Below are positions 6,137 to 61,160 of a stretch of 64,000 nucleotides of DNA, piece after piece. Positions within the stretch are counted from its first letter, which is position 1; every line of letters begins with the position of its first letter. The notes beneath the pieces were generated by a model. The model made no database searches. It was not told the origin of the DNA and saw only the letters and a list, made by a program, of their open reading frames with translations. The stretch is from a bacterium (GTDB taxonomy: Bacteria > Campylobacterota > Campylobacteria > Campylobacterales > Sulfurimonadaceae), in the NCBI GenBank assembly GCA_018822665.1, contig JAHJJX010000019.1:124001-188000 (forward strand). Reading direction: 5' to 3'. A program made the translations under genes and the position numbers.

Positions 6137-6379
6137 CGTTCTTTTATGTTTTGCATTATGCCATGATTTGAAAAGTTTGGCAGTTATAATTTTGAGTTTT
6201 ACTTATATTCGTCTTGGCATGTGGAAACGTTTTGACTGTGATGTCTTGGCATGTGGAACGAGTTCAAGCTTTTTACTTGAGAAATAGACATATTTATAAA
6301 TAACTAAACTTAAGCATTATAGAATACGTTATCATGTTGCTAAGCCAAAAATCTGAAACAGACTTATAAAGGATGTGAG
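6137..6379. promoter_or_regulatory. Divergent promoter region with tandem 13 bp words
   Basis: This 243 bp gap separates the lplA and acs operons and must hold both promoters. TATAGAAT near 6317 and similar AT-rich hexamers are possible -10 elements. Two exact TTGGCATGTGGAA words (6214, 6246) lie in the middle at 32 bp spacing, each preceded by C. AAGGA about 7 bp before the acs ATG is its ribosome-binding site. Confidence 0.5.
6214..6258 (+). repeat. Two exact TTGGCATGTGGAA words in tandem
   Basis: Copies at 6214-6226 and 6246-6258 read in the same direction, start to start 32 bp, and both have the extended form GTCTTGGCATGTGGAA. They are intergenic, between lplA and acs. They are the first members of the dispersed word family in this window. 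Confidence 0.9.
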
Positions 6380-8131
6380 ATGAAAGAGAAGTGGATTGAA
6401 AAAAACATAACTGATTTTGTTGTTGAGCCAAACTTATTGGATTATTCACATGAATATGAAAGATTTGATTGGAAAGATGTTGCAAGTGCTTTTGATGGAC
6501 TTCCATCAGGTGGATTAAATATCGCCCATGAAGCTATTGACAGGCACGCAAACGGTACTTTGGCAGAAAAAGTGGCTTTGTTATGGCTTTGTGAAGACGG
6601 TCATCAAAAAAAATATACTTTTTCACAGATGAAAAAAGAGAGTGCAAAATTTGCAAATATACTTAGCTCTTTGGGTCTTGTAAAAGGTGAGAGAGTTTTT
6701 ACGCTCTCCACACGGCTTCCAGAGCTGTATATCGCTGCTATAGGCATACTGAAAAACTTAAATGTTCTCTGTCCTTTGTTTTCACAGTTTGGACCGCAAC
6801 CAATACTTCAGCGTATGCAAAGGGGTGATGCAAAAGTCCTTTTGACAACTAAAAAACTCTTTGAAAAAAAAATCACCCCTATACTGAACGAACTTCCTGA
6901 ACTTCTATATGTGTTGCTGATTGATGTTGAGGAGGATGAAAGTACACAAGTGCTTTCTCTGCCACGCTTAATGCAAAGCGCATCTGATACATTTGAAATT
7001 CCCCATACCCAACCAGAAGACATGTCTATACTCCATTTTACAAGTGGTACTACAGGTATGCCAAAGGGCGTTGTACACGTGCATAAGGCTGTTTACACCC
7101 ACTGGATGAGTGGGAAATACGCACTTGATTTACATCCAAATGACGTTTATTGGTGTACGGCAGACCCCGGTTGGGTAACAGGAACTTCATACGGAATTAT
7201 TACGCCTTGGATACATGGAGTTACAAATATTGTAGATGAGGCTGAATTTGATGCGGCCAGGTGGTATAAAATACTACAAGATGAAAAGGTAAGTATTTGG
7301 TACACCGCACCTACGGCAATTCGCCGCCTTATGAGAATAAATTCCCAACCGACGAAGGAGTATGACCTTTCTCATCTTCGCCTTATCCAGAGCGTGGGAG
7401 AACCGTTAAATCCGGAAGCTGTTATCTGGGGCAAGGAGAAACTAAAACTGCCTATCCATGATAATTGGTGGCAAACGGAGACGGGCGGAATAATGATATC
7501 TAATCTAATTTCTCAGACTATCCGTCCCGGTTCTATGGGTAGACCACTCCCCGGCATAAAAGCAGGAATCCTTCGTGTTAACGATGATGGAAGCGTAACG
7601 GAGATTACAGAAGCAAACAAAGAGGGTGACTTGGCTCTTAAAGTTGGCTGGCCATCGATGTTCCGAGCTTATTTGCATGCGCAGGAAAAATACGACAAAT
7701 CTTTTATAGGGGAATGGTATATTTCCGGTGATTTGGCATACAAAGATGAAGACGGTTATTTTTGGTTTGTGGGACGTGCAGATGATATTATCAAAACTTC
7801 CGGGCACATGGTGGGTCCTTTTGAAGTGGAAAGCACGCTCATGGAGCATCCCGCCGTTGCAGAAGCCGGAGTTATCGGTAAACCGGATGAGATGATAGGA
7901 CAATTGGTAAAAGCTTTTATCTCACTCAAGACAGGTTTTGAACCAAGCGAAGAACTTAAGCGTGAGCTGATTGGTTTTGGGCGTAAAAAACTAGGCACCG
8001 CGGTAGCACCAAAAGAGATAGAGTTCCAAGAAAATCTGCCAAAGACTAGAAGTGGAAAGATTATGCGAAGACTGCTTAAAGCAAGAGAGATGGGATTACC
8101 TGAGGGTGACACCTCAACACTAGAAGATTAA
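6380..8131 (+). CDS. acsA: AMP-forming acyl-CoA (acetyl-CoA) synthetase
   Basis: This 583 aa ANL-superfamily enzyme activates a carboxylate via an acyl-adenylate. The AMP-binding P-loop-like motif [13 protein letters not shown] is at residues about 217-229, the YxxTE-like motif appears as WWQTETGG, and the C-terminal catalytic lysine motif is [10 protein letters not shown] near residue 560. Length and overall pattern fit the AcsA type of acetate-CoA ligase. It is the first gene of a plus-strand operon ending with the radical SAM gene and is spaced 10 bp from pdhA. It could supply acetyl-CoA from acetate alongside the dehydrogenase, or use another short acid. Confidence 0.85.
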
Positions 8132-8141
8132 AGGAGCTGTA

Positions 8142-9116
8142 ATGGAACTTGATTTGATGAAAGCTAAAGAGTTTTACCATAAGATGCTTTTGATTCGACG
8201 CTTTGAAGAGAGGTGCGTGGAGCTTTACTCCAATCAAAAGATTCGCGGTTTTTTACATCTTTATATCGGTGAAGAGGCAATAGCCGTTGCTCTGATGGAT
8301 GCACTCACTAAAGAAGATGCCGTTCTTGCTACTTACAGAGAGCACGGATATGCGCTTGCGCGTGGAGTTAGTTGTGAAAGCATAATGGCTGAAATGTTTG
8401 GAAAAGTTGAAGGATGCTCACGAGGGCGGGGCGGTTCTATGCATCTCTTTGATGCTTCTGCGCGCTTTTATGGCGGCAGTGCCATTGTCGCCGGCGCCCT
8501 GCCGCTTGCTGTAGGTATGGCGCTTGCAGACAAGATGCAAAAACGAAATAGAGTTACAGTCTGTGTTTTTGGCGATGGTGCCGTGGCTGAAGGAGAATTT
8601 CATGAGTCTTTAAATCTAGCTGCTTTGTGGAAATTGCCAGTTTTATTTGTTTGTGAAAATAATCTTTATGCTATGGGTACGGCTTTAAAATATACAGAAT
8701 CAGAGACAGAAATCTATAAAAAAGCAGCTTCATACAAAATTTCTTCAAAACAGATTGACGGTATGAGTGTGATAGAAGTGGCCAAGGCTGCAAAGAGAGC
8801 TGTTGAAGATATTAAAGATGGAAATGGACCTGTATTCTTAGAGTGCCTTACTTACCGTTTTCGTGCCCATTCTATGTTTGATGCAGAACTTTACCGTGAA
8901 AAAGCAGAAGTAATTGAGTGGAAGAAAAAAGATCCTCTCCTTGTGTTTGAAAATAGACTTAAAGAGATTGGATTATGGTCCGAGGTAGATGCAACAGCGA
9001 TAGAAGATGCAATAAAAACGGCCATAGATAAAGCGGTTGAATTTGCCGAAAACGGTACGCTTGAAGCACTGGAAGATTTAGAAAAATTTGTCTATTCTGA
9101 GGTGAGTCATGGATAA
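8142..9116 (+). CDS. pdhA: 2-oxoacid (pyruvate/acetoin) dehydrogenase E1 alpha
   Basis: This 324 aa E1 alpha subunit carries the TPP-binding motif [15 protein letters not shown]...ENN (residues about 145-178) and the phosphorylation-loop motif [16 protein letters not shown] is typical of both pyruvate and acetoin dehydrogenases. Its stop overlaps the start of the beta gene by 8 bp. Substrate cannot be fixed from sequence; pyruvate is the conservative choice and acetoin the main alternative. Confidence 0.88.
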
Positions 9117-15624: not shown

Positions 15625-16338
15625 TCATATCTTCGTGCATGCATATATAATAAGTAAGTGCAGCGGATAGAATGCATAAAAGTAATATTTGTTAATCCTT
15701 GGCATGTGGAAACTTACATTTATATAATATATTATAACTAGAGAAATAACTGCTGCCAAAGCATACACCATACTAAAATTAATTAAAATCGTGCTTATTA
15801 ATAAAAGTGGAAGCAAATATTTATATTCATATACGTAATACAATAAAATTATTGTGGTAAGTCCAAAGAAAAAATATCCGGTCAAAATTGAAAGTATAAT
15901 ACTTATGCTTAAAATAAATGTAGAAATAAAATAAAATAAAATCGTTAAGTTGTATGTTTTATCTCTAAAGACAAAATAATATATGTGGCCGTCCTTGAGG
16001 TTTTTAATTGCATCTATACTCAAAAGTCCTAGAAGTAAAAGAAACAATATGTTAAAAAAAGAAGTATCTCCTAAAACCAACATGAAAGGGCCTTGAGATA
16101 TAATCGCCCATGTTAAAAGTCTTAACTTGTAAGCCGTTTTATCCTTGGTGTTATATCTGTAGTTATACGCCAGGACAAAAATAAAACCAATTAAAGCAAA
16201 TCTACCGATAAATCTAAAAGTTTCGTGCCCTTCATATATTACCCCAACATGGTCTATAAGCATGCTAATTATGGATAGATATTTTATTATTTCAATAGTT
16301 GGTTTAGTCTTATATAATTTACTATATAGTATTTTCAT
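15625..16338 (-). CDS. TraX-like integral membrane protein
   Basis: This 237 aa protein is almost entirely hydrophobic, with about eight membrane segments. It contains the TraX-family pattern IKYLSIISMLIDHVG near residue 20-34, followed by FRFIGRFALIGFIFVLAYNY. TraX acetylates F-pilin. Here it is coupled to the secretin by an ATGA overlap inside a filamentous phage, so modification of coat or host pilin is a reasonable guess. The C-terminus (FHMPRINKYYF) is encoded by a copy of the 13 bp word. Confidence 0.78.
   Translation of the reverse strand: MKILYSKLYKTKPTIEIIKYLSIISMLIDHVGVIYEGHETFRFIGRFALIGFIFVLAYNYRYNTKDKTAYKLRLLTWAIISQGPFMLVLGDTSFFNILFLLLLGLLSIDAIKNLKDGHIYYFVFRDKTYNLTILFYFISTFILSISIILSILTGYFFFGLTTIILLYYVYEYKYLLPLLLISTILINFSMVYALAAVISLVIIYYINVSFHMPRINKYYFYAFYPLHLLIIYACTKI
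15699..15711 (+). repeat. Exact 13 bp word inside the TraX-like gene
   Basis: The only exact copy within the prophage. It is read antisense to the gene, encoding FHMPR. Confidence 0.9.
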
Positions 16339-26107: not shown

Positions 26108-27727
26108 ATGTTTAAATTCATTTTTTTATTATCTTTTACATTGGCATGTGCAAATGCTGAAATAACCTTGGAAGATATCACTTCCAAGCCACCAAGCCGT
26201 GCTAAAAATTTTATGATTTGGCAATATTTAAATCAAGATATAAGCCCAAAAGAGGCCGATGAAGCATTTTATCAAATTGATGGTGTAAGTGATAATCTTT
26301 TAAATACTTATGCAAAAAAGAGCAATAAAAACGAAATTATAGAGACTCTCACATGCATGAAACAAACAAATTTATTGGAAATTAAAGATAAAGATTGTTT
26401 GGAATTGGCTATAACTCCCTCTAAAACACTCAGTATGACAAAAGAACAAAGAGAGGTTCTTGTTGAAAAAATAGATTCCAAAATAGTTAAAGAATGGCTG
26501 AAAATTCAAAGCGAGCCAAACTCTCTCAAAGCGTATGAGCCCTACTCCGCAAATGCCATATTGACATTATTTAACAGCTCTACGCAGTCTTATAGAAGAG
26601 AAAAATTAAATATATTTTTAGATGATTCTTTTTTGAATAAACTGTCATCTTCTTGGAAAATTTCGCAGTTTATACAAATCATTGTTAACGATGACACATT
26701 AGACAAACTGCAAATTTCACTTTTAAACCTTGATGGAACAAAATTAAATTCTCAAAATAATTTTCTCTTGGCGCTTAATCATCTGAAGCATTCAAGCAAT
26801 AAAGTTGCATTAAAGTATTTTGAATTGTCTCTTAAGAAAGCTACAAATAAAATGGATGTAGACAAAAATAATTTTTGGATGTATAAAACAACAGACGATA
26901 AAAAATATTTAAATCAACTTTTGCTAAGTATGGATATTAATATTTACTCACTTTATGCGTATGAGATAATGAATAAAAAAATTGAAAATTACTTTACTTC
27001 TGTTAAGACGACTGATCAAAAGTCTGAAAAAAATCTAGATGACCCATTTGATTTGATTTATATTTTAGATGAAATCAAATCAACCCCTAAAAGTAAATTA
27101 TTTGATTTAGCCTCAGCATATAATCAAAAAGACATGGTCGCTATACAAACAATAATACTTGAAAAAGCTTATGATTATAAAATACATGGATTTGTCATGC
27201 CTTATGATCAATATTTAAATGATGTGTCTAATGAAGAAAAAGCCTTTATTTATGCAATTATGAAACAAGAAAGTCACCTGATTCCCTCCGCCATATCTCG
27301 TTCATACGCTCTTGGTCTCATGCAGATAATGCCTTTTCTTGTGGACTCAATAAGCAAGAACTATAAAGAGCCTATCCGTACGTATAGCGATATGTTTATA
27401 CCAAAGAATAATCTAAACTACGCTCTGGAACATCTGGCTTGGATGCGAAAATCTTTATACCATCCTCTTTTTATGGCGTATGCCTATAATGGCGGCATGG
27501 GATTTTTCAAAAGACATCTTCTTGATGGCGCATTTAATGAAGGAAAATACGAGCCATTTTTAAGCATGGAACTCATGGCAAATGCTGAAAGCCGAGAATA
27601 TGGTAAAAAAGTTTTAGCGAATTACGTTATGTATAGAAAGATTTTGGGGGAAAGTATTTCTATTGTTCATCTTTTTGATATATTAACGCAACCGAAGAAG
27701 ACTGACCGCTTTCGAGTACAAGGCTAA
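26108..27727 (+). CDS. slt: Soluble-type lytic murein transglycosylase
   Basis: This 539 aa periplasmic enzyme has a signal peptide (MFKFIFLLSFTLACANA), a long helical superhelix domain and a C-terminal SLT domain. Catalytic Glu lies in IMKQESHLIPSAISRSYALGLMQIMP, and AYNGG follows. It cleaves peptidoglycan glycan strands to anhydro-muropeptides. Its 3' end overlaps the convergent lipoprotein gene by 68 bp. Confidence 0.93.
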   Translation: MFKFIFLLSFTLACANAEITLEDITSKPPSRAKNFMIWQYLNQDISPKEADEAFYQIDGVSDNLLNTYAKKSNKNEIIETLTCMKQTNLLEIKDKDCLELAITPSKTLSMTKEQREVLVEKIDSKIVKEWLKIQSEPNSLKAYEPYSANAILTLFNSSTQSYRREKLNIFLDDSFLNKLSSSWKISQFIQIIVNDDTLDKLQISLLNLDGTKLNSQNNFLLALNHLKHSSNKVALKYFELSLKKATNKMDVDKNNFWMYKTTDDKKYLNQLLLSMDINIYSLYAYEIMNKKIENYFTSVKTTDQKSEKNLDDPFDLIYILDEIKSTPKSKLFDLASAYNQKDMVAIQTIILEKAYDYKIHGFVMPYDQYLNDVSNEEKAFIYAIMKQESHLIPSAISRSYALGLMQIMPFLVDSISKNYKEPIRTYSDMFIPKNNLNYALEHLAWMRKSLYHPLFMAYAYNGGMGFFKRHLLDGAFNEGKYEPFLSMELMANAESREYGKKVLANYVMYRKILGESISIVHLFDILTQPKKTDRFRVQG

Positions 27728-28151
27728 GCTTTTTGGATGATTCTTTAAAAGCAACAATATAGTATCTATTCCATTCACTCTCAACAGATGCTAAATGGGA
27801 AAATTTGTTGGCATGTGGAAGCTGTTTTATTTTTATAGGCAGTTTGCCGTTAAGCTTGAGTGCTAACTTAACGTCTTCAAAAGAGTTGGGATCATACATC
27901 TCTTGCTTGTCTTTTAAATATAAATATACAAAAAAATATTCATGCTGATTGTATGCATCAGGGTAAACTTCATTTAAATATATTGCAGAAAAAATCCCGT
28001 TTACTTTTGTACCGTTTTTTATTTTACTGCTTTGTATGCTTGAAGAAGCTAGCTCTTGTTGTATATTCATATTGAATTTTGTAAAGGCATTTTGATGAGA
28101 ACAGCCACTCAAAAGGAAAAGAAAAGTAAAAGTGGCAAAAAAAGATTTCAT
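27660..28151 (-). CDS. Putative lipoprotein, 163 aa
   Basis: A lipoprotein signal peptide (FLFLLSGC) gives an acylated Cys near residue 17. The rest is a beta-rich domain of unknown function. The last 23 codons run antisense through the end of slt, an unusually long convergent overlap. An exact copy of the 13 bp word (27808-27820) encodes LPHAN. The start is followed upstream by a typical AT-rich promoter gap. Confidence 0.8.
   Translation of the reverse strand: MKSFFATFTFLFLLSGCSHQNAFTKFNMNIQQELASSSIQSSKIKNGTKVNGIFSAIYLNEVYPDAYNQHEYFFVYLYLKDKQEMYDPNSFEDVKLALKLNGKLPIKIKQLPHANKFSHLASVESEWNRYYIVAFKESSKKLSLVLESGQSSSVALIYQKDEQ
27808..27820 (+). repeat. Exact 13 bp word inside a lipoprotein gene
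   Basis: Antisense to the 27660-28151 gene, encoding LPHAN. Confidence 0.9.
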
Positions 28152-29820: not shown

Positions 29821-31758
29821 TTGAGTAAATATATTACAACACCAATATACTATGTTAACGGCGAAGCCCATATCGGGCATGCGTATACTACATTTATAGC
29901 AGATACAATGACTCGATATGAAAAGCTAAAAGGTGAAGATGCATATTTTTTAACGGGAACAGATGAGCATGGTCAGAAGATTGAAGAATCGGCTGCAAAA
30001 AATGGTAAACCTACTCAAGAGTTTGCAAACGAGATAAGTGCTTCATTTAAAAATTTGTGGGATGAATTTGAAATTAGCTATGACAAATTTATCAGAACAA
30101 CCGATGAAGACCATAAAAAAGGTGTTCAAAAAGCTTTTGAAGTTATGTATGCTAAAGGTGATATATATAAAGATTTTTATGAGGGGCATTATTGTGTCAG
30201 TTGTGAAACATTTTTTCCTGAAACCCAATTAGTGGACGGTGAATTTTGTCCTGATTGCGGCAGAAGCACGAGCATTGTTAAAGAGGAAAGCTACTTTTTT
30301 AAACTCTCAAAATATGAACCTGCCCTTTTGAAGTATTATACCGATAATCCGGATTTCATTTTACCGCGCTCACGTGCAAATGAAGTTATAAATTTTGTAA
30401 AAGGCGGATTAAGAGATCTCTCAGTCACAAGAACATCTTTCAGCTGGGGCGTAAAAATGCCTGAGTCCATGAATGACGATAAGCATGTTATGTATGTTTG
30501 GCTGGATGCGCTTATGAATTATATTACAGCATTAGGCTACGGAAAAGATGATGCAAATATGCGTTATTGGCCCGCATCCACTCAATTTGTGGGTAAAGAT
30601 ATTCTAAGGTTTCATGCTATTTACTGGCCTGCATTTTTAATGAGCCTTGATTTACCTCTTCCAGAACATATCGGTGCACACGGGTGGTGGACGAGAGATG
30701 GGGAAAAAATGAGCAAATCCAAGGGTAATGTCATCTCTCCAAAACAAGTTGCAGATGCTTATGGCGTTGAAAATTTGAGATATTTTATGCTGAGAGAGGT
30801 CCCTTTTGGTCAAGATGGAGATTTTTCCCAAAGAGCATTTATAGACAGAATCAACTCAGAACTTAGCAATGATTTAGGCAATCTTTTAAATCGTATTATA
30901 GGTATGAGCGGAAAATATTCTGACTTTGAGATAGATAGCGTTGATGTTTTGAAGTACCATACAAAAGAGATTGAAGCGATGAATATTGTTTTAGATTCAC
31001 TTGATTCTTTCATGAAAAACATGCAGACACATAGATATTTGGAAGAACTTTGGAAATTATTTGCAATAGGAAATAAAGCCATTGAAGAACATGCTCCATG
31101 GGTAAAAATGAAAGAAGACAGAAAAGATGAAGCACTTGCAACAGTGGCTTTGGTTGCCAACATACTTGCAAAAGCTGCCGTGATGCTTCATCCTGTAATG
31201 CCACGAACCACGAACACCATAGCGGATGCCCTTCATTTTAAAATAGACCATGATAGCTATAAAGATTTGATTTTAGAAAAAAATCTTTTAGAATTATTTA
31301 ATATTAAAGTAGTGCCGCCTCTTTTTCCTCGTGTTGAAGAGCCTTTAATGCCTGAAGCGCCTAAAGCTATGCCGGATGATAAACCAAACGATCAGATGAA
31401 AGAAGATTTAAAGGCAAAAAGAGAAGATGATAATCTTATAGAGATTGGACAGTTCTTTGAAACATCTTTAAAAGTCGGTATTGTTGTAGAAGCTGAGGAA
31501 GTTCCAAAAAGTAAAAAACTGTTAAAACTTCAAGTTGATATTGGTGAAGATAAACCAAGACAGGTTATAGCCGGAATAAAAGAATTTTATTCTGCCGAGT
31601 CACTTTTAAACACGCAAGTTTGTGTTGTTGCAAATCTTAAACCGGCTAAACTTATGGGAATGCTTTCCGAGGGAATGCTTCTTGCTGCCAAGGACGAAGA
31701 TGGTTTATGTTTAATAAGACCGGAAAAACCTAAAAAAGCGGGCACACCTATTGGATGA
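29821..31758 (+). CDS. metG: Methionyl-tRNA synthetase
   Basis: This 645 aa class I enzyme starts at TTG. It has TTPIYYVNGEAHIGHAY (HIGH region), a CVSCETFF...CPDCGR zinc knuckle near residues 125-147, and GEKMSKSKGN near residue 295. A C-terminal EMAP/Trbp111-type tRNA-binding domain starts about residue 545. Its stop overlaps the start of the MurF-like gene. Confidence 0.96.
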   Translation: MSKYITTPIYYVNGEAHIGHAYTTFIADTMTRYEKLKGEDAYFLTGTDEHGQKIEESAAKNGKPTQEFANEISASFKNLWDEFEISYDKFIRTTDEDHKKGVQKAFEVMYAKGDIYKDFYEGHYCVSCETFFPETQLVDGEFCPDCGRSTSIVKEESYFFKLSKYEPALLKYYTDNPDFILPRSRANEVINFVKGGLRDLSVTRTSFSWGVKMPESMNDDKHVMYVWLDALMNYITALGYGKDDANMRYWPASTQFVGKDILRFHAIYWPAFLMSLDLPLPEHIGAHGWWTRDGEKMSKSKGNVISPKQVADAYGVENLRYFMLREVPFGQDGDFSQRAFIDRINSELSNDLGNLLNRIIGMSGKYSDFEIDSVDVLKYHTKEIEAMNIVLDSLDSFMKNMQTHRYLEELWKLFAIGNKAIEEHAPWVKMKEDRKDEALATVALVANILAKAAVMLHPVMPRTTNTIADALHFKIDHDSYKDLILEKNLLELFNIKVVPPLFPRVEEPLMPEAPKAMPDDKPNDQMKEDLKAKREDDNLIEIGQFFETSLKVGIVVEAEEVPKSKKLLKLQVDIGEDKPRQVIAGIKEFYSAESLLNTQVCVVANLKPAKLMGMLSEGMLLAAKDEDGLCLIRPEKPKKAGTPIG

Positions 31759-32750
31759 GATTAGAAAATATCCTTGCACTTACTCATGGAAAGCTTATAA
31801 ATGAGCCCTTTGTAAATAGTTTTGAAAATATTGTTTTTGAAGTAAAAGCAATTAAGAGGGGGGACCTTTTTATTGCTTTTGATGAAAAAGAGATACAAAC
31901 AGCTGTAATGAATGGAGCGTATGGTGTTATTTTTGACAAACCAACACAAATAAGCGATAATGAAATTGCCTGGATTAAAGTTCAAGACACTGAAGATGCA
32001 TTAAGAAGGCTTTTGCGCTTTCGACTGATAGAAAAAGAGGTTGTTGTTTATGAGTGTAATGAGATTATTTTAAAACTTGCTTTGCAGGTCATTACTGAAG
32101 TGAATTTTATTGTACTTCACGGAAATATAAAATCTATATCCAAGTCTCTTTGGCATGTGGAAAATAATTCCACCCTCCTCTTCTGCCCTACGCTCTGCAA
32201 TAAAGATATTTTTACAAATATTAAAACCCTTCCTAAAACTGCCATAGAACCTATTGCGATAATGGAACAAACTTTATTTGAAACATCCTTTATTTATGAC
32301 AATATTTTTTACGAAAGACAATTGATTTCACCATTTTTCATACCTTATTTAGAAGAACTGCTTCATCTTTATAAAAGTTTGAAAATTAACTACAGACTTA
32401 GAAAATTTACCCCGATAGAGCATTTTGAAGCAGTTTTTACCAATAAGAATTTTGAAATAAAAGAGTTCGGCACCAGCGATAAAGTGCTTATTTTTGAACC
32501 AAACACAAATTTAATCAAAAGTGAAATAACATTTTTGCAAAAACAAGCGAACTGGGCGAAAACAATTTATATCATTCCACATGCCATAGAACATGAAAAA
32601 AATCACAACATATTTACCTATAAAAACGAAAAAGAAATCACCAGTCTACTCAAGCACAATACTTTTCATTTTGCACTTATAGTAGGCGTAGACAAATCCA
32701 TACTCAACAAACCGCTCTCAAACCAAAGACAACTAACCTTGGATTTTTAA
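31755..32750 (+). CDS. MurF N-terminal-domain-like protein without ATPase motif
   Basis: The first 90 residues look like the substrate-binding domain of MurE/MurF ligases (VKAIKRGDLFIAFDEKE, AVMNGAYGVIFDKP). The expected ATP-binding GTNGKT loop is missing; in its place is ITEVNFIVLHGNIKSISKSL. The remaining domain keeps a ligase-like length but no catalytic motif that I can see. It is probably a degenerate or repurposed ligase. Two copies of the 13 bp word family lie inside it (32150 and 32575). Confidence 0.65.
   Translation: MRLENILALTHGKLINEPFVNSFENIVFEVKAIKRGDLFIAFDEKEIQTAVMNGAYGVIFDKPTQISDNEIAWIKVQDTEDALRRLLRFRLIEKEVVVYECNEIILKLALQVITEVNFIVLHGNIKSISKSLWHVENNSTLLFCPTLCNKDIFTNIKTLPKTAIEPIAIMEQTLFETSFIYDNIFYERQLISPFFIPYLEELLHLYKSLKINYRLRKFTPIEHFEAVFTNKNFEIKEFGTSDKVLIFEPNTNLIKSEITFLQKQANWAKTIYIIPHAIEHEKNHNIFTYKNEKEITSLLKHNTFHFALIVGVDKSILNKPLSNQRQLTLDF
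32150..32162 (+). repeat. Exact 13 bp word inside the MurF-like gene
   Basis: Sense to the gene; encodes LWHVEN. A second member, TGGCATGTGGAA, lies at 32575-32586 on the minus strand and encodes IPHAIE. Confidence 0.9.
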
Positions 32751-36884: not shown

Positions 36885-37541
36885 TCAAACAATATGCGTA
36901 CTTTTTAATTCGTATCTTAAAAACTTGGAAGAAGGTAGGTAGTTTTGAACTAAATCATGAAATTTTTTTGAATGATTCATATATACGAGATGCGCTAGTT
37001 CGTGTACAATTACATAGTCAATAAGTTCTTTTTTGATTTTAATAAGTTCTGTGTTGAGTGTTATAGTTTTGTTTGAACTGCAACTGCCCCATCTGCTTCT
37101 CATTTTCTTAAATTTTATCTCTTTATAATCAAGACGCATAACCTGTGCAAAATATGCAATTCGGGGGGTTAAATATTTATTTGCATAGTGTTTGTAAAAG
37201 TTGTCATAGCACTTTAAGATATTTTGATGAGAGTCAACCCTAAGCTTATCAATAAATAATCTTAAATCCTCTGCCTCATCAACGTCAATACTGTAAATTT
37301 CTCCAAACAGCAGAACTTCATCTTCAAAGTTGATTCGTTTTGGTGGATTTTGCTGGGTTTTTAAAAGCTGTTTGCGTATCCATTCCTCTTTTTCGATGAG
37401 AAGATTCGTTATAAAATCCTGAGACACTCTTGGTGTTTTTAGAATAATCTTGGCATGTGGAAGTACACTTATATAACTATTTTTTAAATTTGATTTACAA
37501 ATATGTTCTATCTTTAAATTTTTAAATATAATTTCATTCAT
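36885..37541 (-). CDS. YgjP/SprT-like metallopeptidase-fold protein
   Basis: This 218 aa protein has the zinc motif VIVHELAHLVYMNHSKKFHDLV near the C-terminus, preceded by MRSRWGSCSSNKTITLNTEL, the signature of the YgjP (DUF45) family. It overlaps queC by 8 bp. A copy of the 13 bp word (37450) encodes LPHAK. Confidence 0.9.
   Translation of the reverse strand: MNEIIFKNLKIEHICKSNLKNSYISVLPHAKIILKTPRVSQDFITNLLIEKEEWIRKQLLKTQQNPPKRINFEDEVLLFGEIYSIDVDEAEDLRLFIDKLRVDSHQNILKCYDNFYKHYANKYLTPRIAYFAQVMRLDYKEIKFKKMRSRWGSCSSNKTITLNTELIKIKKELIDYVIVHELAHLVYMNHSKKFHDLVQNYLPSSKFLRYELKSTHIV
37450..37462 (+). repeat. Exact 13 bp word inside the YgjP-like gene
   Basis: Antisense to the gene, encoding LPHAK. 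The 11 bp core recurs at 37608-37618 on the other strand, within queC. Confidence 0.9.
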
Positions 37542-38214
37542 AAATAATCGGGTCTTTTACTCCGGCTAATTTAAATCCATTAAGCCTTAATCTGCAACTG
37601 TCACATATTCCACATGCCGACTCTTCATTTTTATAACAGCTCCAAGTAAGCTCGAGCGGGACATGAAGCTCTAAGGCTTTTTGAACTATTTGAGATTTTT
37701 TAAGATGCACTAATGGCATTTTTATCTCTATATTTGTTTCATCTTTTGTACCAAGATTTATACTTTGCTGCATACTTTTTATATACGATTCTCTACAATC
37801 GGGATAGCCGCTGCTATCCTCTTCAACCACACCTATGCATATCACTTCCGCCCCTTCTTTTTCGGCAATGGCCGCCGCCATACTTAAAAAGATTCCATTT
37901 CTAAAAGGAACATAAGTAACGGGTACGCCCTTTTCTATCCCTCTTGTCGGTACTTCTATTGTTTTATCCGTCAAAGCTGATGCGCCAAGCTGTTTAAAAA
38001 AATCCAAATCCAATACATATTTATTTGAAGTATTCAATGCGGTACATATCGCATGAAAACACTCCAACTCTTTTGTTTGCGTTCTCTGGTCATAATTAAA
38101 ATGAAGTGCGATTATCTCATAATTATCATTTTGCATCATGTATGCACCAAGCGTTGAATCCATTCCGCCACTCATCACACACACGGCTTTTTTTCTTTTT
38201 ATTTGTTTATTCAT
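37534..38214 (-). CDS. queC: 7-cyano-7-deazaguanine synthase
   Basis: This 226 aa enzyme makes preQ0 for queuosine. It shows the PP-loop SGGMDSTLGAYM near the N-terminus and the zinc-binding C-terminal SCYKNEESACGICDSCRLR with four cysteines. The 11 bp word at 37608-37618 encodes SACGI within this site, so it is partly constrained by protein function here. Confidence 0.95.
   Translation of the reverse strand: MNKQIKRKKAVCVMSGGMDSTLGAYMMQNDNYEIIALHFNYDQRTQTKELECFHAICTALNTSNKYVLDLDFFKQLGASALTDKTIEVPTRGIEKGVPVTYVPFRNGIFLSMAAAIAEKEGAEVICIGVVEEDSSGYPDCRESYIKSMQQSINLGTKDETNIEIKMPLVHLKKSQIVQKALELHVPLELTWSCYKNEESACGICDSCRLRLNGFKLAGVKDPIIYE
37608..37618 (-). repeat. 11 bp word inside queC
   Basis: GGCATGTGGAA on the minus strand encodes the ACGI part of the zinc-binding loop, so this copy could be protein-driven. 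Confidence 0.8.
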
Positions 38215-38567: not shown

Positions 38568-38987
38568 ATGATTGAATTAGATAACAGAACCTCACTTGAA
38601 ATTAATGAAAGTATTCTCAATACGATAGCTTCATCGCTCACGAACAAAGAGATAGAGCTTATCATTACGACAAATGAAGAGATACGAGGCATAAATAAAG
38701 AGTTTAGAGGTATCGATAAAGATACGGATGTTTTGAGTTTTCCTTATGAAGAGATGCCTATGTCACCGCTTGGAAGCATAGTGATTTCTTCTTGGCATGT
38801 GGAAGCAAAAGCCAAAGAGCTGGGGCATGAAAACAGTGATGAATGTGCCCTGCTCTTTATACATGGATTGCTCCATTTATTGGGATTTGACCATGAAGTT
38901 GATCATGGTGAGATGAGAGAAGAAGAGGCAAAGCTCATCAAAAAATATAATTTGCCGGAAAGTTTAATTATAAGAACACAAGGATAA
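38568..38987 (+). CDS. ybeY: Endoribonuclease YbeY
   Basis: This 139 aa protein has the zinc motif HGLLHLLGFDHEVDH, matching YbeY, and the DTDVLSFPYEE block. It acts in 16S rRNA 3' maturation and ribosome quality control. It is coupled to the downstream antiporter gene at 2 bp spacing. An exact copy of the 13 bp word (38792) encodes SWHVEA. Confidence 0.95.
   Translation: MIELDNRTSLEINESILNTIASSLTNKEIELIITTNEEIRGINKEFRGIDKDTDVLSFPYEEMPMSPLGSIVISSWHVEAKAKELGHENSDECALLFIHGLLHLLGFDHEVDHGEMREEEAKLIKKYNLPESLIIRTQG
38792..38804 (+). repeat. Exact 13 bp word inside ybeY
   Basis: Sense to the gene, encoding SWHVEA. Confidence 0.9.
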
Positions 38988-43349: not shown

Positions 43350-43759
43350 TTTATACAGTCGGCCCAGATTTTATGTTCTGGCAAAGACTCTTTTGGGATT
43401 TCTACAAAATCCAATCTTTCAAAAAATGCTTTTTTGTAAGTCAAACACAGTACTTTTTGAACTCCTAAAGATAAAGCTTCATCAAGAGATTTTTTGACTA
43501 AACCCTCTCCGATTTTTTGACCTCTTAAACTTTCTTCTACAACTAAAGATCTAATTTCTGCAAGTGAGGCCGCATGGATGTGAAGAGCACAAAAACCAAC
43601 CAAGCAACCATCTTTTAATGCTAATGTGTAAGATCTTATATTTGTTGCAATTTCATCATCGCTTCTATGCAAAATAACACCTGACTCAACATCCGGCTGC
43701 ACTAACTTTTGCATAGCCTGTATATTGCTGAGATGCGCTTTTTTATACTCAATGTTCAT
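43298..43759 (-). CDS. N-acetyltransferase, ArgA/ArgO-like
   Basis: A start at 43759, overlapping engB with GGAAG upstream, gives 153 aa. GNAT features are SLVVEESLRGQKIGEGLV (acetyl-CoA loop). The C-terminal HKIWADCIKCKHFPICNEV Cys-containing tail is shared with short ArgA-like N-acetylglutamate synthases. It would acetylate glutamate to start arginine synthesis; other amine substrates are possible. Confidence 0.72.
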   Translation of the reverse strand: MNIEYKKAHLSNIQAMQKLVQPDVESGVILHRSDDEIATNIRSYTLALKDGCLVGFCALHIHAASLAEIRSLVVEESLRGQKIGEGLVKKSLDEALSLGVQKVLCLTYKKAFFERLDFVEIPKESLPEHKIWADCIKCKHFPICNEVSLIKNL

Positions 43760-44366
43760 CTGCTTCCTTTTGTAAAATATCATAAATAATCTTTGTTGCT
43801 TTGGCTATTCCCTTTTTTTTAGAACTGGAAATCATAATGGCATGTGGAAATTCTTTGAGTAATGCATTTTGCTCTTTTTGATTGAGCTTATCTATTTTAG
43901 TAAAAATTTGTAAGATGTATTGATTCTCTTTGCAATTTTCAAGTAAAAATTCACGCACGGACGTATCTATGTCTAAATGCGGATGCCTGCAATCCACAAG
44001 ATGTATAAAAAGTTTAATCTGCTCCCTTTGTGAAATATAGTCGGTTAAATTTTTCTCCCAGTCGTATTTAATGGATTTTGAAACTTTTGCATAACCGAAA
44101 CCCGGCAAATCGACAAATTTGGAGGTGCTTTTTTCAGAAGTTTCTCTATTGATAAAAGTGACATCAAAATAGTTTATGAGTCTTGTTTTACCGGGCGTTG
44201 AAGATACTTTTGCTAAGCCCTTATGGTTTGTGAGTGCGTTGAGTAATGAACTTTTGCCTGCATTTGAACGAGCCATAAAGACAACTTCATTTTGCTCAGG
44301 CGAGTCAGGTGCTTTTAAAATATTTGGGGCTGATGTTATAAACTTTGCATCTACTATTTCTACCAT
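43749..44366 (-). CDS. engB: Ribosome-biogenesis GTPase EngB/YsxC
   Basis: This 205 aa GTPase has G1 ARSNAGKSSLLNAL, G3 DLPGFGYA and G4 TKID. It assists 50S subunit assembly. It starts 2 bp after the lptA stop. The word TGGCATGTGGAA at 43838 encodes FPHAI. Confidence 0.96.
   Translation of the reverse strand: MVEIVDAKFITSAPNILKAPDSPEQNEVVFMARSNAGKSSLLNALTNHKGLAKVSSTPGKTRLINYFDVTFINRETSEKSTSKFVDLPGFGYAKVSKSIKYDWEKNLTDYISQREQIKLFIHLVDCRHPHLDIDTSVREFLLENCKENQYILQIFTKIDKLNQKEQNALLKEFPHAIMISSSKKKGIAKATKIIYDILQKEADEH
43838..43849 (+). repeat. 12 bp word inside engB
   Basis: TGGCATGTGGAA preceded by A; antisense to engB, encoding FPHAI. Confidence 0.88.
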
Positions 44367-48531: not shown

Positions 48532-48544
48532 TTCCACATGCCAA
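48532..48544 (-). repeat. Exact 13 bp word, intergenic
   Basis: TTGGCATGTGGAA on the minus strand, between tatD and mltD and 12 bp past the tatD stop. Confidence 0.9.
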
Positions 48545-48555: not shown

Positions 48556-49332
48556 TTAAGAAATATTAAATAACCTTTTTGCGTTTTCTGTGGTTATTTC
48601 ATTGATGTCTTGAGTAGAAATTTCTAATAATTCTGCCATTTTATCAACAATATACCTAGTATACAAAGGTTCATTTCTCTGCCCGCGGTAGGGCATTGGA
48701 GTTAAGTATGGTCCATCTGTTTCAATCAACAGTCTGGCATGTGGAATTTTTGGTAAAACGTTAAGTAGTTTTTTTGCATTTTTAAAGGTTAAAACTCCCC
48801 CTATTCCAAAATAGAAATTTTCATTTGCAAGACTTAACAACTCTTCATCTGCATTGTAGCAGTGCAATACTCCACCGACCTCTTTTGCATTATGCTTTAG
48901 AAGCAGCTCTTTTGAATCTCTTGAAGCATCCCGAATATGAACTATAAGCGGTTTTTTGTACTTTTTTGCCAATTCTATTTGTGCGGAAAAAATCTCTTTT
49001 TGTTTTAACTTCTCGTTTTCTTTGTCGTGTGCAGTTCCCTCGAGTCTAAAGTAATCCAGTCCGCATTCACCTATGGCGACACATTTTTCATGACAAACAT
49101 ATTTTTCAAAATCAAGTGTTTTAAAGGAATCCATATCATAAGGATGGACGCCAACCGCAAAAAAAACATCATCATGTTTTTGTGAAATTAAAACAGCTTT
49201 TTCAAGCGTTTCAGGATTCGCACCGGGGATGATAAATCTTTGTACCCCACCCTCTCTTGCTCTGTTTAACACTTCGTCCAAGTCATCATCGTATCTGTCG
49301 TCGTCTAAATGTATATGCGTATCTATTGTCAT
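48556..49332 (-). CDS. tatD: TatD-family metal-dependent DNase
   Basis: This 258 aa amidohydrolase-fold enzyme has DTHIHLDD, AIGECGLDYFR, KPLIVHIRDA, GVLHCYN and LIETDGPYLTP, the full set of TatD metal ligands. It acts as a 3'-5' DNase or in DNA repair. The word at 48735 encodes IPHAR in it. Its ATG immediately follows the small-protein stop. Confidence 0.95.
   Translation of the reverse strand: MTIDTHIHLDDDRYDDDLDEVLNRAREGGVQRFIIPGANPETLEKAVLISQKHDDVFFAVGVHPYDMDSFKTLDFEKYVCHEKCVAIGECGLDYFRLEGTAHDKENEKLKQKEIFSAQIELAKKYKKPLIVHIRDASRDSKELLLKHNAKEVGGVLHCYNADEELLSLANENFYFGIGGVLTFKNAKKLLNVLPKIPHARLLIETDGPYLTPMPYRGQRNEPLYTRYIVDKMAELLEISTQDINEITTENAKRLFNIS
48735..48746 (+). repeat. 12 bp word inside tatD
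   Basis: TGGCATGTGGAA preceded by C; antisense to the gene, encoding IPHAR. The next copy, 48532, is 203 bp away in the other orientation. Confidence 0.88.
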
Positions 49333-49503
49333 TTATATCTCTTTTTTTTGCTGTTTTAAATTTTTAACATATTTAATATTTTTTATCATCAGGTAGATGA
49401 AAAATAGTGAAGCAAATAAAGAACCAAGAGAAAGCAAAAGGTTATTGCTAATAAGAAAATTGTAACTTAGTACAAATAAAACAATAGAAATTATTAAACA
49501 CAT
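49333..49503 (-). CDS. Small two-helix membrane protein, 56 aa
   Basis: ATG at 49503 lies within the end of recN and the TAA is directly followed by the ATG of tatD. The product (MCLIISIVLFVLSYNFLISN, then LLLSLGSLFASLFFIYLMIK) has two membrane segments and a basic tail (KNIKYVKNLKQQKKEI). Exact fit between two coupled genes supports translation. Function unknown. Confidence 0.78.
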   Translation of the reverse strand: MCLIISIVLFVLSYNFLISNNLLLSLGSLFASLFFIYLMIKNIKYVKNLKQQKKEI

Positions 49504-51035
49504 TTACTCGCCTCCAGAAGCTCTTTTGCAAAGTTTTTAGCTTCGGTGGAGATACTGTCTCCGCTGATAATCCTTGCTATCTCGTCTACTCTGTTTTCAA
49601 AATTGAGTTCGCTCACAAAAGAGTCATTGCCATTTTTATGAACTAAAAAGTGTTGATTACCCATGGAAGTGAGTTGCGGTTGATGAGAGATAACAAAAAT
49701 TTGAAAATGTTTTGACAACTCTCTTAAAACTTTTGCAACACTCATCGACTCCTCCCCGCTTAAATTGGCATCAATCTCATCAAGCATTAAAACGCCGCCA
49801 TTTTTGTTCATAAACTCTGATTTTAGCGCTAAAACAGCAAGTCTCAGCCTGTTAAATTCTCCCGTACTCACTTTTTGAAGTTCTGTATTATTTAACTTTA
49901 ATGCTATTTCATCTTTTCCATAGAGGCTGTACTCAATCTCGTTCATTGCTACTTCTGCTTCTCTTAGGTAAAGTTCTTTGAGATATTTGTTGAGATCATC
50001 ATTAAAAGATTTCAGTTCCACATGCCGTAAATCCGTCAGATTTTGTGCCATTTTTTTCACTTTTTTATCTAACATGGCATTTTGTTTTACAAGGTCACCT
50101 TTTTTAATTTCAATATTTTCATATTCGGCAAGTTCTATTTTTTTTTGCTCTTTGTAAGCCAAAGCTTCCTCTATGCTTCCGTATCTTCTTTTTAATCCGC
50201 TCAGCTCTTCTATACGGTTTAGCACCTCTTCAATGTCTATGTCATCGAGGGCGCTGAATCTTTCTTGTGCATTATCAAAAATATTTCGCAGTTCATTCAT
50301 GGCATCGTCAAAAAATGAACTATTTAAATCCAAAGAATCTAAAGCATTAAAGACATGATGTTCGTTTTCAAAAATAGTATTTGCCAAAGATATATTTTCG
50401 AGTACTTTTTCTTTTTTGGAAAGCTCTTTTTTTATTTCGCTCAGTTGCGTATCTTCTGAGATTTTTGGTGCTATATCTTCTATTTTTTTAATTTCAAAAC
50501 TTGCAAATTCTTTGAGTTCTACTATTCTTTTTTCTTCTTCATCTATTTTTTTCAGTTCTGACTTTACTGCTTTATACTCTAAAAAAGTTTCTTTGTATTC
50601 ATTTTTAAGTGTTTGAATATCGTAAGATTTATTTTGAATTCTATTGTCCAAAATGGATATTAAGTTCTCATTTTCAAAGTCGCTGAAATCTTTTAAACTC
50701 AAGTGTCTTAAATAATTTGAATTTAAATCTAGCATTGATTTTTTAGAAACACTTTGATTGTTTATAAAATATCTTGATTTTTCTTTTCTTATATGTTTAA
50801 AAACATTTATTTCATCATTTTCTATCCCTATCTCTTGCGCATCAAGTTCCCATGTTACACTTGATTCGCATAAGCTTGCTTCACAACTGCTTGCACCAAG
50901 TGATGAAAGTATAGAGTTCATAAGTATGGATTTTCCGCTTCCGCTTGGACCTGTAAAAACGACAAGTCCACATGCCAAGTTCAATTCAGCCTCTTTAAAA
51001 CTAAGATAATCTTTTAAATAAAACCTTTCAATCAA
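49494..51035 (-). CDS. recN: DNA repair protein RecN (short form)
   Basis: This 513 aa SMC-like ATPase has Walker A GPSGSGKSILM, a central coiled coil (about residues 130-330), a signature region TGEFNRLRLAVLALK and Walker B VLMLDEIDANLSG. It acts in double-strand break repair. It carries two members of the word family (50016 and the near copy at 50967). It ends by overlapping the small membrane-protein gene. Confidence 0.94.
   Translation of the reverse strand: MIERFYLKDYLSFKEAELNLACGLVVFTGPSGSGKSILMNSILSSLGASSCEASLCESSVTWELDAQEIGIENDEINVFKHIRKEKSRYFINNQSVSKKSMLDLNSNYLRHLSLKDFSDFENENLISILDNRIQNKSYDIQTLKNEYKETFLEYKAVKSELKKIDEEEKRIVELKEFASFEIKKIEDIAPKISEDTQLSEIKKELSKKEKVLENISLANTIFENEHHVFNALDSLDLNSSFFDDAMNELRNIFDNAQERFSALDDIDIEEVLNRIEELSGLKRRYGSIEEALAYKEQKKIELAEYENIEIKKGDLVKQNAMLDKKVKKMAQNLTDLRHVELKSFNDDLNKYLKELYLREAEVAMNEIEYSLYGKDEIALKLNNTELQKVSTGEFNRLRLAVLALKSEFMNKNGGVLMLDEIDANLSGEESMSVAKVLRELSKHFQIFVISHQPQLTSMGNQHFLVHKNGNDSFVSELNFENRVDEIARIISGDSISTEAKNFAKELLEASKCV
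50016..50026 (-). repeat. 11 bp word inside recN
   Basis: GGCATGTGGAA on the minus strand, encoding RHVEL. A near copy (TTGGCATGTGGAc, 50967-50979) lies further upstream in recN. Confidence 0.88.
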
Positions 51036-51037
51036 TT

Positions 51038-51892
51038 TTATTCTCCCCAGCTAAGCTTTTCTTTTAATACTTCAAAATAATTAAACTCTTCCCTGTGGAG
51101 AAGTTTTGCCCTTTTTGAAGCGAGTTTTATGTAAACACTTTCACCCTGCTCCAGCTCATGTATATCTTGCCCGTCTATAATCATCAATGCGGGATTATTA
51201 GGTGTTTTCATCTGTATAGAAAATGTACCGGGTAAAACTACCGGTCTTTGGGTGAGGGAGTGCGGACAAATCGGAGTAAGTGTGAAAACTTCAGTAAGAG
51301 GAAATAAAACAGGTCCCCCTGCAGATAAATTATAGGCTGTCGAGCCGGTTGGAGTTGATACGATAACACCGTCTCCATTATAAGTATTGAATGCTTTGGA
51401 GTCTACTAAAGTTTCTATTTTTATCATATTTGAAATAGAAGGACGCGTTAGGACGATGTCATTAAAAGCGTACATAATAACTTCTTCCCCATTTTTTATA
51501 ACGGTGGCTTCCAAAACAGCTCTCTCGTCTATTCTCACTTTTCCACATGCCAGATTCTTTACAAATTCATCAAGCTCATCCATGCTGACATCTGCCAAAA
51601 AACCAAGATTTCCGGCATATACGCCAAACACGGGAATGTTAAAATTGAAAGATCTTCGCACAGCAGAGATAAGAGTTCCGTCTCCTCCAAGCGTTACAAG
51701 AGCATCACAGTTTTTGCACAATAGATTAAAGTCCATCCCCATAACATCTATCATACCGCCGCTGATACTGTCTATATACACCTCTATATTGTATTTCTGA
51801 AATATCTTTTCAAGCTTAAAAAAACTACTTTTTAATTCTGGAGTTGAGGGTCTTAAAATTACACCAATTTTTTTAATAGTATTACTTTGCAA
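51038..51892 (-). CDS. nadK: NAD kinase
   Basis: This 284 aa enzyme has the catalytic TLGGDGTLISAVR (GGDG) and STPTGSTAYNLSAGGP. It phosphorylates NAD+ to NADP+. It is 2 bp before recN. The word at 51541 encodes LACGKV. Confidence 0.95.
   Translation of the reverse strand: MQSNTIKKIGVILRPSTPELKSSFFKLEKIFQKYNIEVYIDSISGGMIDVMGMDFNLLCKNCDALVTLGGDGTLISAVRRSFNFNIPVFGVYAGNLGFLADVSMDELDEFVKNLACGKVRIDERAVLEATVIKNGEEVIMYAFNDIVLTRPSISNMIKIETLVDSKAFNTYNGDGVIVSTPTGSTAYNLSAGGPVLFPLTEVFTLTPICPHSLTQRPVVLPGTFSIQMKTPNNPALMIIDGQDIHELEQGESVYIKLASKRAKLLHREEFNYFEVLKEKLSWGE
51541..51552 (-). repeat. 12 bp word inside nadK
   Basis: TGGCATGTGGAA preceded by C on the minus strand; encodes LACGK. Confidence 0.88.
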
Positions 51893-54446: not shown

Positions 54447-55298
<852 letters not shown>

Positions 55299-59318: not shown

Positions 59319-59822
59319 TCATCGCGCGTATCTTGTGTTTTTAGGATTGTTTTTATCAAAGTTGAGGATATTCAAAATACTTTTTTTATTCATTTTTCTT
59401 GCAAAATCTGTAGCCGTAAACCCTTTTACATCCCTAGCCTCTATGTTCGCTCCCTCAGCTAAAAGGGTTTTAGTGATCTCTACCCTTCCATAACATGCGG
59501 CCGCCATGAGCGGTGTAAAACCGCTTCTTCTCTTTGTTTTATTAATATCAATTCCGTGTTCTAGCAAATAATTGAAAAGGGCTATATTGTTATAAGTAAT
59601 GGACATGTCAAATATGCTTACACCCTCCTCATCAAAGTCGTGGATATCTGCACCGTTCTCTATAAGCAAGAAGAGAATATCTATGTCGCATCCACATCGT
59701 ATTCCACATGCCAGAATCGATTCTCCATGCTCATTCGTATCATTCACGTCAGCGCCATCTCTCATATACTTTTTAATACTCAAATAATCATTGTTTTTTA
59801 AAAATTCCAACCACTTATTCAT
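59319..59822 (-). CDS. Ankyrin-repeat protein
   Basis: A start at 59822 with AAGGA upstream gives 167 aa with about four ankyrin repeats (GADVNDTNEHGESILACGIRC, GADIHDFDEEGVSIFDMSI, GIDINKTKRRSGFTPLMAAA, GANIEARDVKGFTATDFA). It probably mediates protein binding. The word at 59702 encodes ILACGI in the first repeat. Confidence 0.88.
   Translation of the reverse strand: MNKWLEFLKNNDYLSIKKYMRDGADVNDTNEHGESILACGIRCGCDIDILFLLIENGADIHDFDEEGVSIFDMSITYNNIALFNYLLEHGIDINKTKRRSGFTPLMAAACYGRVEITKTLLAEGANIEARDVKGFTATDFARKMNKKSILNILNFDKNNPKNTRYAR
59702..59713 (-). repeat. 12 bp word inside the ankyrin gene
   Basis: TGGCATGTGGAA preceded by C on the minus strand; encodes LACGI. Confidence 0.88.
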
Positions 59823-59914
59823 AAATATCCTTCTCTTAGGCTTTAAGTATATATAAATACTCATTAGTAATATTTAAGTATAATGCCGCAATCAAAAACT
59901 TTAAGTGAGAATTC

Positions 59915-61114
59915 ATGGAAATAATTGAAACAGCAGATGCTTTTAAAGTATTAATAGAAAATATTAAATCATCAATACCTAATTACAAAAATCCTTTGGC
60001 GTTTGGTATTGCAAGGGTAGATTTAGGCCAGTTAAATGTAGATAAAACTCTTCAGGCGACTTATCCAATCATAAACTGGAATGAAAACTTCGGCAGTGCC
60101 GCTATTTTTATTCAAGCACTTTTGGAACAAGGGATAGAGGTTGATTTTACTCAAAGTGAATTTGTAAGCACTATCAATTTAGCCTTTTTAAAGAGTTGTC
60201 TCAATGCCTTTACTCCTTACTCTGACGAAGCTTATGGCGATGCTCACAAAAATATTCAAGTAGTATCTGCCCTTTATAATCAAATAATTAGCAGCGGAAG
60301 CTTGGAGGGCGAGTTTAAAGTAACATTTATTTTTAGCGATGAAGCACTTAAAAGCGTGGAAGCAACCTACCTAAAACTTTATGCTCTCTCCCAAGCAAAA
60401 GTTGAAATTAGAAGCATTAACTTAAATGGTGCATTTGGCGCATTGCCAAATGTTGCGTGGTCTAACGGCTCCCCAATAGAGCTGGAATACCTCAGAGAAT
60501 TTGAGATAGAATTAAAACTCTCCAATGAATACCCGCATATAGATTTTGTAGATAAATTTCCAAGATTTTTACAGCATATCATTCCGGCAGACAATACAAG
60601 AATCCTTGATACTTCAAAAGTGAGATTCGGAGCACAACTTGCAGCGGGAACAACTGTAATGCCGGGTGCTTCTTACATTAATTTTAATGCAGGAACAACG
60701 GGTTCTGTTATGGTTGAAGGAAGAATCTCAAGCTCAGCCATAGTCGGTGCAGGAAGTGATGTCGGCGGTGGAGCTTCTATACTCGGTGTTTTAAGCGGTA
60801 CAGACGGCAATCCTATTTCTGTAGGTAAAAATACTCTTCTTGGTGCAAACTCAACTTGCGGTATTCCACTGGGAGATGGCTGTATCATGGATGCAGGTAT
60901 TGCTATTTTAGAAGGCACTAAAGTTGCAATCAACTCGAAAGAACTTGCAAAAATCAAAGAGGTGAATAAAAATTTCATCCAAGAAGGTGAAGTTTTTAAA
61001 GCGAAAGATTTAGCAGGACTTCATGGTGTTCATTTCAGACAAAACTCACAAACGGGCGCGATTACCGCTTCTCGCTCAACAAGAGAAATTAAACTAAACG
61101 CAGAACTCCACTAA
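59915..61114 (+). CDS. dapD: Tetrahydrodipicolinate N-succinyltransferase, long form
   Basis: This 399 aa enzyme has an N-terminal globular part and C-terminal left-handed hexapeptide repeats (residues about 235-330, for example SSAIVGAGSDVGGGASILGVLSG). It succinylates tetrahydrodipicolinate in lysine/diaminopimelate synthesis. The length is the Campylobacterota type. A copy of the word and a hairpin follow the stop. Confidence 0.93.
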   Translation: MEIIETADAFKVLIENIKSSIPNYKNPLAFGIARVDLGQLNVDKTLQATYPIINWNENFGSAAIFIQALLEQGIEVDFTQSEFVSTINLAFLKSCLNAFTPYSDEAYGDAHKNIQVVSALYNQIISSGSLEGEFKVTFIFSDEALKSVEATYLKLYALSQAKVEIRSINLNGAFGALPNVAWSNGSPIELEYLREFEIELKLSNEYPHIDFVDKFPRFLQHIIPADNTRILDTSKVRFGAQLAAGTTVMPGASYINFNAGTTGSVMVEGRISSSAIVGAGSDVGGGASILGVLSGTDGNPISVGKNTLLGANSTCGIPLGDGCIMDAGIAILEGTKVAINSKELAKIKEVNKNFIQEGEVFKAKDLAGLHGVHFRQNSQTGAITASRSTREIKLNAELH

Positions 61115-61121
61115 TAAAACT

Positions 61122-61160
61122 TTGGCATGTGGAATTTCTGAGTTATCTTTGCTCAGAAAT
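61122..61160 (+). terminator. dapD terminator hairpin preceded by the 13 bp word
   Basis: The exact word TTGGCATGTGGAA at 61122-61134 lies 8 bp after the dapD stop. Directly after it, ATTTCTGAG (61134-61142) and CTCAGAAAT (61152-61160) form a 9 bp stem around a 9-base loop. Confidence 0.75.

Follow-up and report, generated by a model that had tools for sequence, protein, structure and literature searches.

A dispersed word as a probable DNA uptake sequence in a group of Sulfurimonas species

Why does the short word GGCATGTGGAA recur, in both orientations and within unrelated genes, along a 64-kb stretch of bacterial DNA? The stretch (hereafter the window: positions 124,001 to 188,000 of contig JAHJJX010000019.1) comes from the genome of a sulfur-oxidising bacterium of the genus Sulfurimonas, phylum Campylobacterota. 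The consensus form of the word, YTTGGCATGTGGAA, very probably serves a group of Sulfurimonas species as a DNA uptake sequence, judging from the excess of the word, its occurrence in both orientations without bias by gene strand or GC skew, its retention at orthologous sites, its restriction to certain species, and the presence of ComEC, ComEA and pilins. In such a system a pilus-borne surface receptor would prefer DNA that bears the word, and ComEA and ComEC would then import this DNA, which would recombine; word-bearing fragments would enter more often, and recombination would keep and spread the word wherever it does little harm.

Abundance and layout of the word

An exact count recovered all 18 copies of GGCATGTGGAA that a first, sequence-only reading of the window had found, 11 on the plus and seven on the minus strand (Table 1); 15 of the starts given there were exact, and three on the minus strand were off by one, being truly 32575, 51541 and 59702. 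No copy appeared in 100 dinucleotide shuffles of the window. Nine copies extend to the 13-mer TTGGCATGTGGAA, the number first claimed. Six copies are intergenic and 12 genic, the latter divided equally between sense and antisense (6/6) and using all three reading phases (FHMP, PHA, HVE, ACG), in agreement with the reported lack of gene-strand preference and the use of different frames.

Table 1. Copies of GGCATGTGGAA in the window (ORF, open reading frame)
Feature	Position	Strand	Context
GGCATGTGGAA copy	6216..6226	+	intergenic; 13-mer TTGGCATGTGGAA spans 6214-6226
GGCATGTGGAA copy	6248..6258	+	intergenic; 32 bp beyond copy at 6216
GGCATGTGGAA copy	15701..15711	+	within ORF 15625-16338 (-), read FHMP
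GGCATGTGGAA copy	27810..27820	+	within ORF 27660-28151 (-), read LPHA
GGCATGTGGAA copy	32152..32162	+	within ORF 31755-32750 (+), read WHVE
GGCATGTGGAA copy	32575..32585	-	within ORF 31755-32750 (+), read IPHA
GGCATGTGGAA copy	37452..37462	+	within ORF 36885-37541 (-), read LPHA
GGCATGTGGAA copy	37608..37618	-	within ORF 37534-38214 (-), read SACG
GGCATGTGGAA copy	38794..38804	+	within ORF 38568-38987 (+), read WHVE
GGCATGTGGAA copy	43839..43849	+	within ORF 43749-44366 (-), read FPHA
GGCATGTGGAA copy	48532..48542	-	intergenic
GGCATGTGGAA copy	48736..48746	+	within ORF 48556-49332 (-), read IPHA
GGCATGTGGAA copy	50016..50026	-	within ORF 49494-51035 (-), read RHVE
GGCATGTGGAA copy	51541..51551	-	within ORF 51038-51892 (-), read LACG
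GGCATGTGGAA copy	55259..55269	-	intergenic; inverted pair, left arm
GGCATGTGGAA copy	55281..55291	+	intergenic; inverted pair, right arm; predicted hairpin with left arm 55259..55269
GGCATGTGGAA copy	59702..59712	-	within ORF 59319-59864 (-), read LACG
GGCATGTGGAA copy	61124..61134	+	intergenic

The whole genome (2,507,095 bases in 44 contigs) holds 662 copies, 328 forward and 334 reverse, against a single occurrence of the reversed word, an excess far stronger than that of the window alone. The sequence-only reading had proposed to test whether the word is the most over-represented in the genome, at about one copy per 3-4 kb; the density is one per 3.8 kb, and under a Markov model GGCATGTGGA(A) ranks first in 284 to 340 kb sampled from this genome (palindromes such as TTACATGTAA were counted on both strands in over-representation and density counts). 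The 99 copies of the 9-mer GGCATGTGG in 340 kb give a consensus of about 13 nt, YTTGGCATGTGGAA, in which two T are partly kept (53% and 64%) and the final A reaches 78%. Outside it there is a weak T two bases on and otherwise almost no information, which bears out the earlier statement that the flanks differ and that the word is not part of a longer repeat. Copies from two relatives (n = 29 and n = 63) gave a near-identical consensus.

Intergenic DNA makes up 7.1% of the bases in the 340 kb and holds 20% of 98 copies, the other 79 being genic, so that the first estimate of about one third stands for the window and not for the larger sample. The intergenic/genic density ratio is 3.3 in the window genome (G000) and 3.6 and 2.9 in two other bearers (G454 and G455). 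Inverted pairs at 12 to 17 bp from start to start number six among the first 100 places listed for the genome, and further short-loop inverted pairs turn up beyond these. In two joined stretches the longest runs free of the word measure 19.1 kb and 16.5 kb, too small a number of cases to support any statement on foreign DNA. The 16.5-kb run, which lies at a contig edge (L009 1-16490, G000:C4), encodes an HlyD-family protein and other apparent type I secretion genes, and is perhaps acquired DNA. In viral loci not tied to these hosts, a 14-mer occurs once in each of the 80 listed, out of at least 120 stretches; GGCATGTGG occurs twice in four of the 80 listed and more often in none.

Bearers, retention and sister words

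Among 397 genomes sampled across the phylum, the window genome included, three others hold more than six copies of GGCATGTGGAA (946, 734 and 50) and all three belong to the same genus; a family sample of 101 genomes added no further genome above six. In 50 named genomes, picked from 80 RecG loci and overlapping with the phylum sample, nine have at least 50 copies (946, 734, 595, 573, 535, 152, 113, 83 and 50) and the other 41 have 0 to 6. Six species exceed 500 copies, that of the window among them; the genome with 734 is Sulfurimonas sp. CG01_land_8_20_14_3_00_36_23 (G289). Where record titles tell, the species examined come from environmental samples. On a RecG tree of 82 rows, built by a quick method and of modest support, the bearers sit together in a group of 11 rows alongside two low-copy genomes (1 and 4) and a third that was not counted; outside this group lie L125 (152 copies) and L136 (113 copies), the latter preferring the variant TGGCATGTG(G). 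LacPavin_0419_WC90_MAG_36_25 holds 83 copies versus 946 in LacPavin_0818_WC45_MAG_34_15, its nearest counted relative on this tree, and its top words are still remnants of GGCATGTGGAA. The genome with 595 copies (L139) bears a record titled Sulfuricurvum and sits among Sulfurimonas on the tree; it is perhaps mislabelled.

The word is also conserved at orthologous spots, as the first reading had proposed to check. Around recG in the six species that exceed 500 copies, 73 of 123 ortholog comparisons show GGCATGTGG unchanged, the comparisons being counted from both sides and hence not independent; for the remaining 9-mers of these genes the rate is 0.075. GGCATGTGG is kept in none of 89 comparisons for L124 (83 copies), L129 (50), L118 (1) and L123 (4), and in 0/182 when L127, L130, L133 and L149, with 1 to 6 copies of GGCATGTGGAA, are included. 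Background divergence is similar in the bearer and low-copy sets, at about 2.5 mismatches per 9-mer, and the word is therefore retained, where abundant, beyond what relatedness gives.

Different words are abundant in sister Sulfurimonas species; they were first noticed in samples, and each was then counted in 60 whole genomes. CTGCGTTTA has 143 to 782 copies in 12 genomes and 2 to 51 in the other 48 (reversed controls, 1 to 26), CTCACGCA has 962 and 757 copies in two genomes and 2 to 75 in the other 58, and TTAGCATC has 344 to 1,523 copies in nine genomes and 72 to 220 in the other 51, a raised background, since these latter counts mostly exceed their own controls. With cut-offs of 50 for GGCATGTGGAA and of the lowest high-group count for each of the others, no genome passes the mark for more than one of the four, and the words are thus mutually exclusive. 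Their strand split is about even. At orthologous sites in same-word species, CTGCGTTT is kept in 80/135 comparisons versus a control of 0.213 in one clade and in 12/80 versus 0.105 in the other, CTCACGCA in 34/95 versus 0.170, and ACATGTA in 42/142 versus 0.108. A GC[AG]T core, spotted only in hindsight, is common to five of six word types. The sister words are likely, though not certainly, dialects of the same uptake system, the caution arising because they mostly lack intergenic enrichment.

Other words surfaced in the over-representation counts of relatives, one of which dropped the overlapping loci L153, L164, L189, L190, L307 and L064, while another counted L129/L307 and L064/L300 twice. 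A near-palindrome, TACATGTA(A/G), is over-represented in G129 (L058, L103, L109, L110, L242), G471/G186 (L038, L039, L111, L133, L234) and G328 (L028, L029, L114), where about 85 kb of G129 and G471/G186 gave counts of 24 and 35, some of them palindromes scored on both strands. In these genomes ACATGTA is the sequence kept at orthologous sites (42/142, as above), and the near-palindrome may be a further dialect or a regulator site. AACACGCAA, with 10 occurrences in 21 kb versus 0.3 expected in Sulfurimonas sp. 4561-384_metabat2_scaf2bin.042 (L174), is perhaps a further word. GTCATCCTGAA (6 in 40 kb of G254, L036 and L037) and GGTACAAATGA (8 in 20 kb of G319, L062) are local repeats and probably ordinary.

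Competence genes and a candidate receptor

The pilus and ComEC genes that the sequence-only reading had proposed to look for are present in the window genome, which encodes a ComEC piece (PF03772, E 1.7e-24), ComEA (PF12836, E 1.2e-18) and nine N_methyl matches (pilins). Three small pilins adjoin PriA, a minor-pilin operon adjoins RecG, and there is a type II secretion cluster with secretin, ATPase and F protein. This cluster (L095, G000:C26:24001-44000) also contains pseudopilins and adjoins a large surface-like protein; only part of the Sulfurimonas genomes have paired pilins of the same layout. As uptake machinery it was rejected, since same-layout pairs also occur in species with other words and the cluster is thus not specific. 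The PriA-linked pilins, present in 25 of 28 genomes examined (the remaining three stretches held other pilins), were set aside as well, their presence showing no straightforward relation to the word.

A lone pilin of about 180 to 235 amino acids, aligned from 16 relatives (alignment A2), is a receptor candidate. Its 5' neighbour in the eight neighbourhoods read encodes a protein of 600 to 604 amino acids with CoA-ligase and citrate synthase domains, which we read as ATP-citrate lyase, and the other flank is 16S rRNA in 4/4 checked; in G009 a pilin of this rRNA-adjacent type adjoins comEA. Among 39 further genomes, 18 have full-length matches (E below 1e-60) and two have partial ones, while 19 have no match or short N-terminal matches only. 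G458 carries two copies without stops (C24 and C113), and a further match at G489:C6:37945-38623 has in-frame stops and is likely a pseudogene.

In relatives, the pilin is predicted to have a FimU/GspH/FimT fold. The model of the protein from a related species (L226, pLDDT 86.5) matched FimU (Z 11.1), EpsH (9.6), GspH (7.8) and FimT (7.0); Foldseek alone gave E 0.025 at best. Legionella FimT binds DNA, reportedly without sequence selectivity, and has a C-terminal GRxR motif (PMC8897410). Unlike FimT as described there, the proteins of alignment A2 carry GRP internally and do not conserve GRxR at the C-terminus. By its modelled fold, the rRNA-adjacent minor pilin of relatives is a candidate receptor.

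The pilin tree supports a receptor role only in part. CTGCGTTTA species of two RecG clades cluster on it with a CTCACGCA species, and one CTGCGTTTA species (G495) lies apart. Only two of the four strong bearers, G455 and G464, cluster (95/93); G453 and G454 do not. The pilin of LacPavin_0419_WC90_MAG_36_25 groups (100/98) with that of a species that has 3 copies and itself lacks a strong word.

Weighing the readings

A Chi-like site of a recombination nuclease (AddAB/RecBCD), its word differing by species, would also be dispersed, mostly genic and present in hundreds of copies, and the sister words of 8 to 9 nt, largely free of intergenic enrichment, lie within the known size range of Chi. For GGCATGTGGAA this role is nonetheless very improbable, as the word measures 11 to 13 nt, has an intergenic excess and inverted pairs, and is as balanced in orientation as in its genome-wide strand split. 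Orientation relative to the gene is even (40/38, 20/22 and 11/12 in G000, G454 and G455), and local GC skew, taken as a proxy for the replication arms, gives lead/lag counts of 50/48, 30/31 and 15/14, with no Chi-type bias. For the sister words a Chi-like role is less easily dismissed.

The same lack of GC-skew polarity speaks against a site of chromosome organisation or segregation (KOPS-, matS-, parS- or nucleoid-protein-like), as does the presence of the word in 15 of 15 pooled stretches of the window genome and not in one region (contigs C1, C5 and C6 are not among the first 100 word places listed). Dispersal throughout the genome and conservation at sites would suit this role; an essential segregation site would not usually give way to different words in related species, and we consider the explanation less probable again. 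At the bottom of the scale, a self-mark for a defence or restriction-modification system could account for species-specific words maintained within and between genes, but genomes usually avoid restriction sites and do not amplify them, and inverted pairs would have no role. Equally remote is a transcription terminator or mobile repeat remnant, to which the strong hairpin of the pair at 55259/55281 (-20.7 and -23.2 kcal/mol by predicted folding) would lend itself, and which is already disfavoured by single genic copies, with 79/98 sampled copies genic, few of them paired, and flanks sharing almost no sequence.

Several results weigh against the uptake reading itself. The variant TGGCATGTG of G474 (L136) has no intergenic enrichment (1/25, ratio 0.8), nor has CTGCGTTTA in two of three genomes (G485 and G482), and the same is true of CTCACGCA and TTAGCATCA; sister-word ratios are 0 to 0.7, the exception being G500 at 2.2, on 15 copies. 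At orthologous sites TTAGCATC is not kept (8/81 versus a control of 0.137). The rRNA-adjacent pilin was not found in the window genome's assembly and neither was the 600 to 604 amino acid lyase protein, a miss that is not a shown absence, because the gene adjoins rRNA, where draft assemblies often break. Tree congruence failed to single out a receptor: among 16 labelled genomes the word needs at least seven changes on the tree of this pilin versus five on that of RecG, with seven for PilV and six for PilW (present in 20/26 and 22/26 genomes, with at most 16 labelled and fewer for PilV and PilW). No pilin candidate matches the words better than the species tree does. The other pilins at L235 and L243 were left out, as was the second G458 copy from the congruence test.

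The claim that the word behaves like a DNA uptake sequence is thus supported at the level of sequence; we infer a preference of uptake for the word, a pilin as receptor, and a single system of which the other Sulfurimonas words form dialects. More tentatively, and as a possibility somewhat short of probable, the genus may have independently evolved uptake words with exclusive dialects, TTGGCATGTGGAA, CTGCGTTTA, TGCGTGAG, CTTAGCATCA, TTGCGTGTT and possibly CTACATGTA (all but the last with the GC[AG]T core), which would act as gene-exchange barriers and could be lost or switched, as in LacPavin_0419_WC90_MAG_36_25, the rRNA-adjacent pilin serving as receptor.

Two families of Pseudomonadota, the Neisseriaceae and the Pasteurellaceae, are established users of uptake words. 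The DNA uptake sequence (DUS) of the former shows intergenic excess and inverted pairs. Like it, the Sulfurimonas word is short and non-palindromic, has hundreds of copies or more, and is replaced by other words in related species. It differs from DUS in its letters and its phylum, the Sulfurimonas words diverge more from one another, and no ComP was identified in Sulfurimonas, where ComP was not searched for as such. The word is therefore regarded as working like DUS, yet is not placed in the neisserial DUS family, and its origin is apparently independent. With the uptake signal sequence (USS) of Pasteurellaceae, which belongs to a naturally competent group, it shares its genome-wide spread; the word itself is another, and no AT-rich flanking blocks like those of the USS are seen. 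For DUS, one study gives eight dialects with a common CTG core and, for four dialects, 2,257 to 5,918 copies (PMC3630211), in contrast to the 50 to 946 of the Sulfurimonas genomes with at least 50. Among the papers listed by a search whose scope left out preprints and most subscription journals, none linked an uptake sequence to Campylobacterota or Sulfurimonas, and among the matches listed for the letters of the word there were unrelated subjects only.

If the uptake reading is true, Sulfurimonas would provide a third, apparently independent case of uptake words, in another phylum and with several words in one genus, comparable to dialects in which related species carry different 'take me up' labels. 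Many species could then be compared for how uptake words arise, spread, switch and disappear, and a strict preference for self-DNA would have arisen outside the Neisseriaceae and Pasteurellaceae too.

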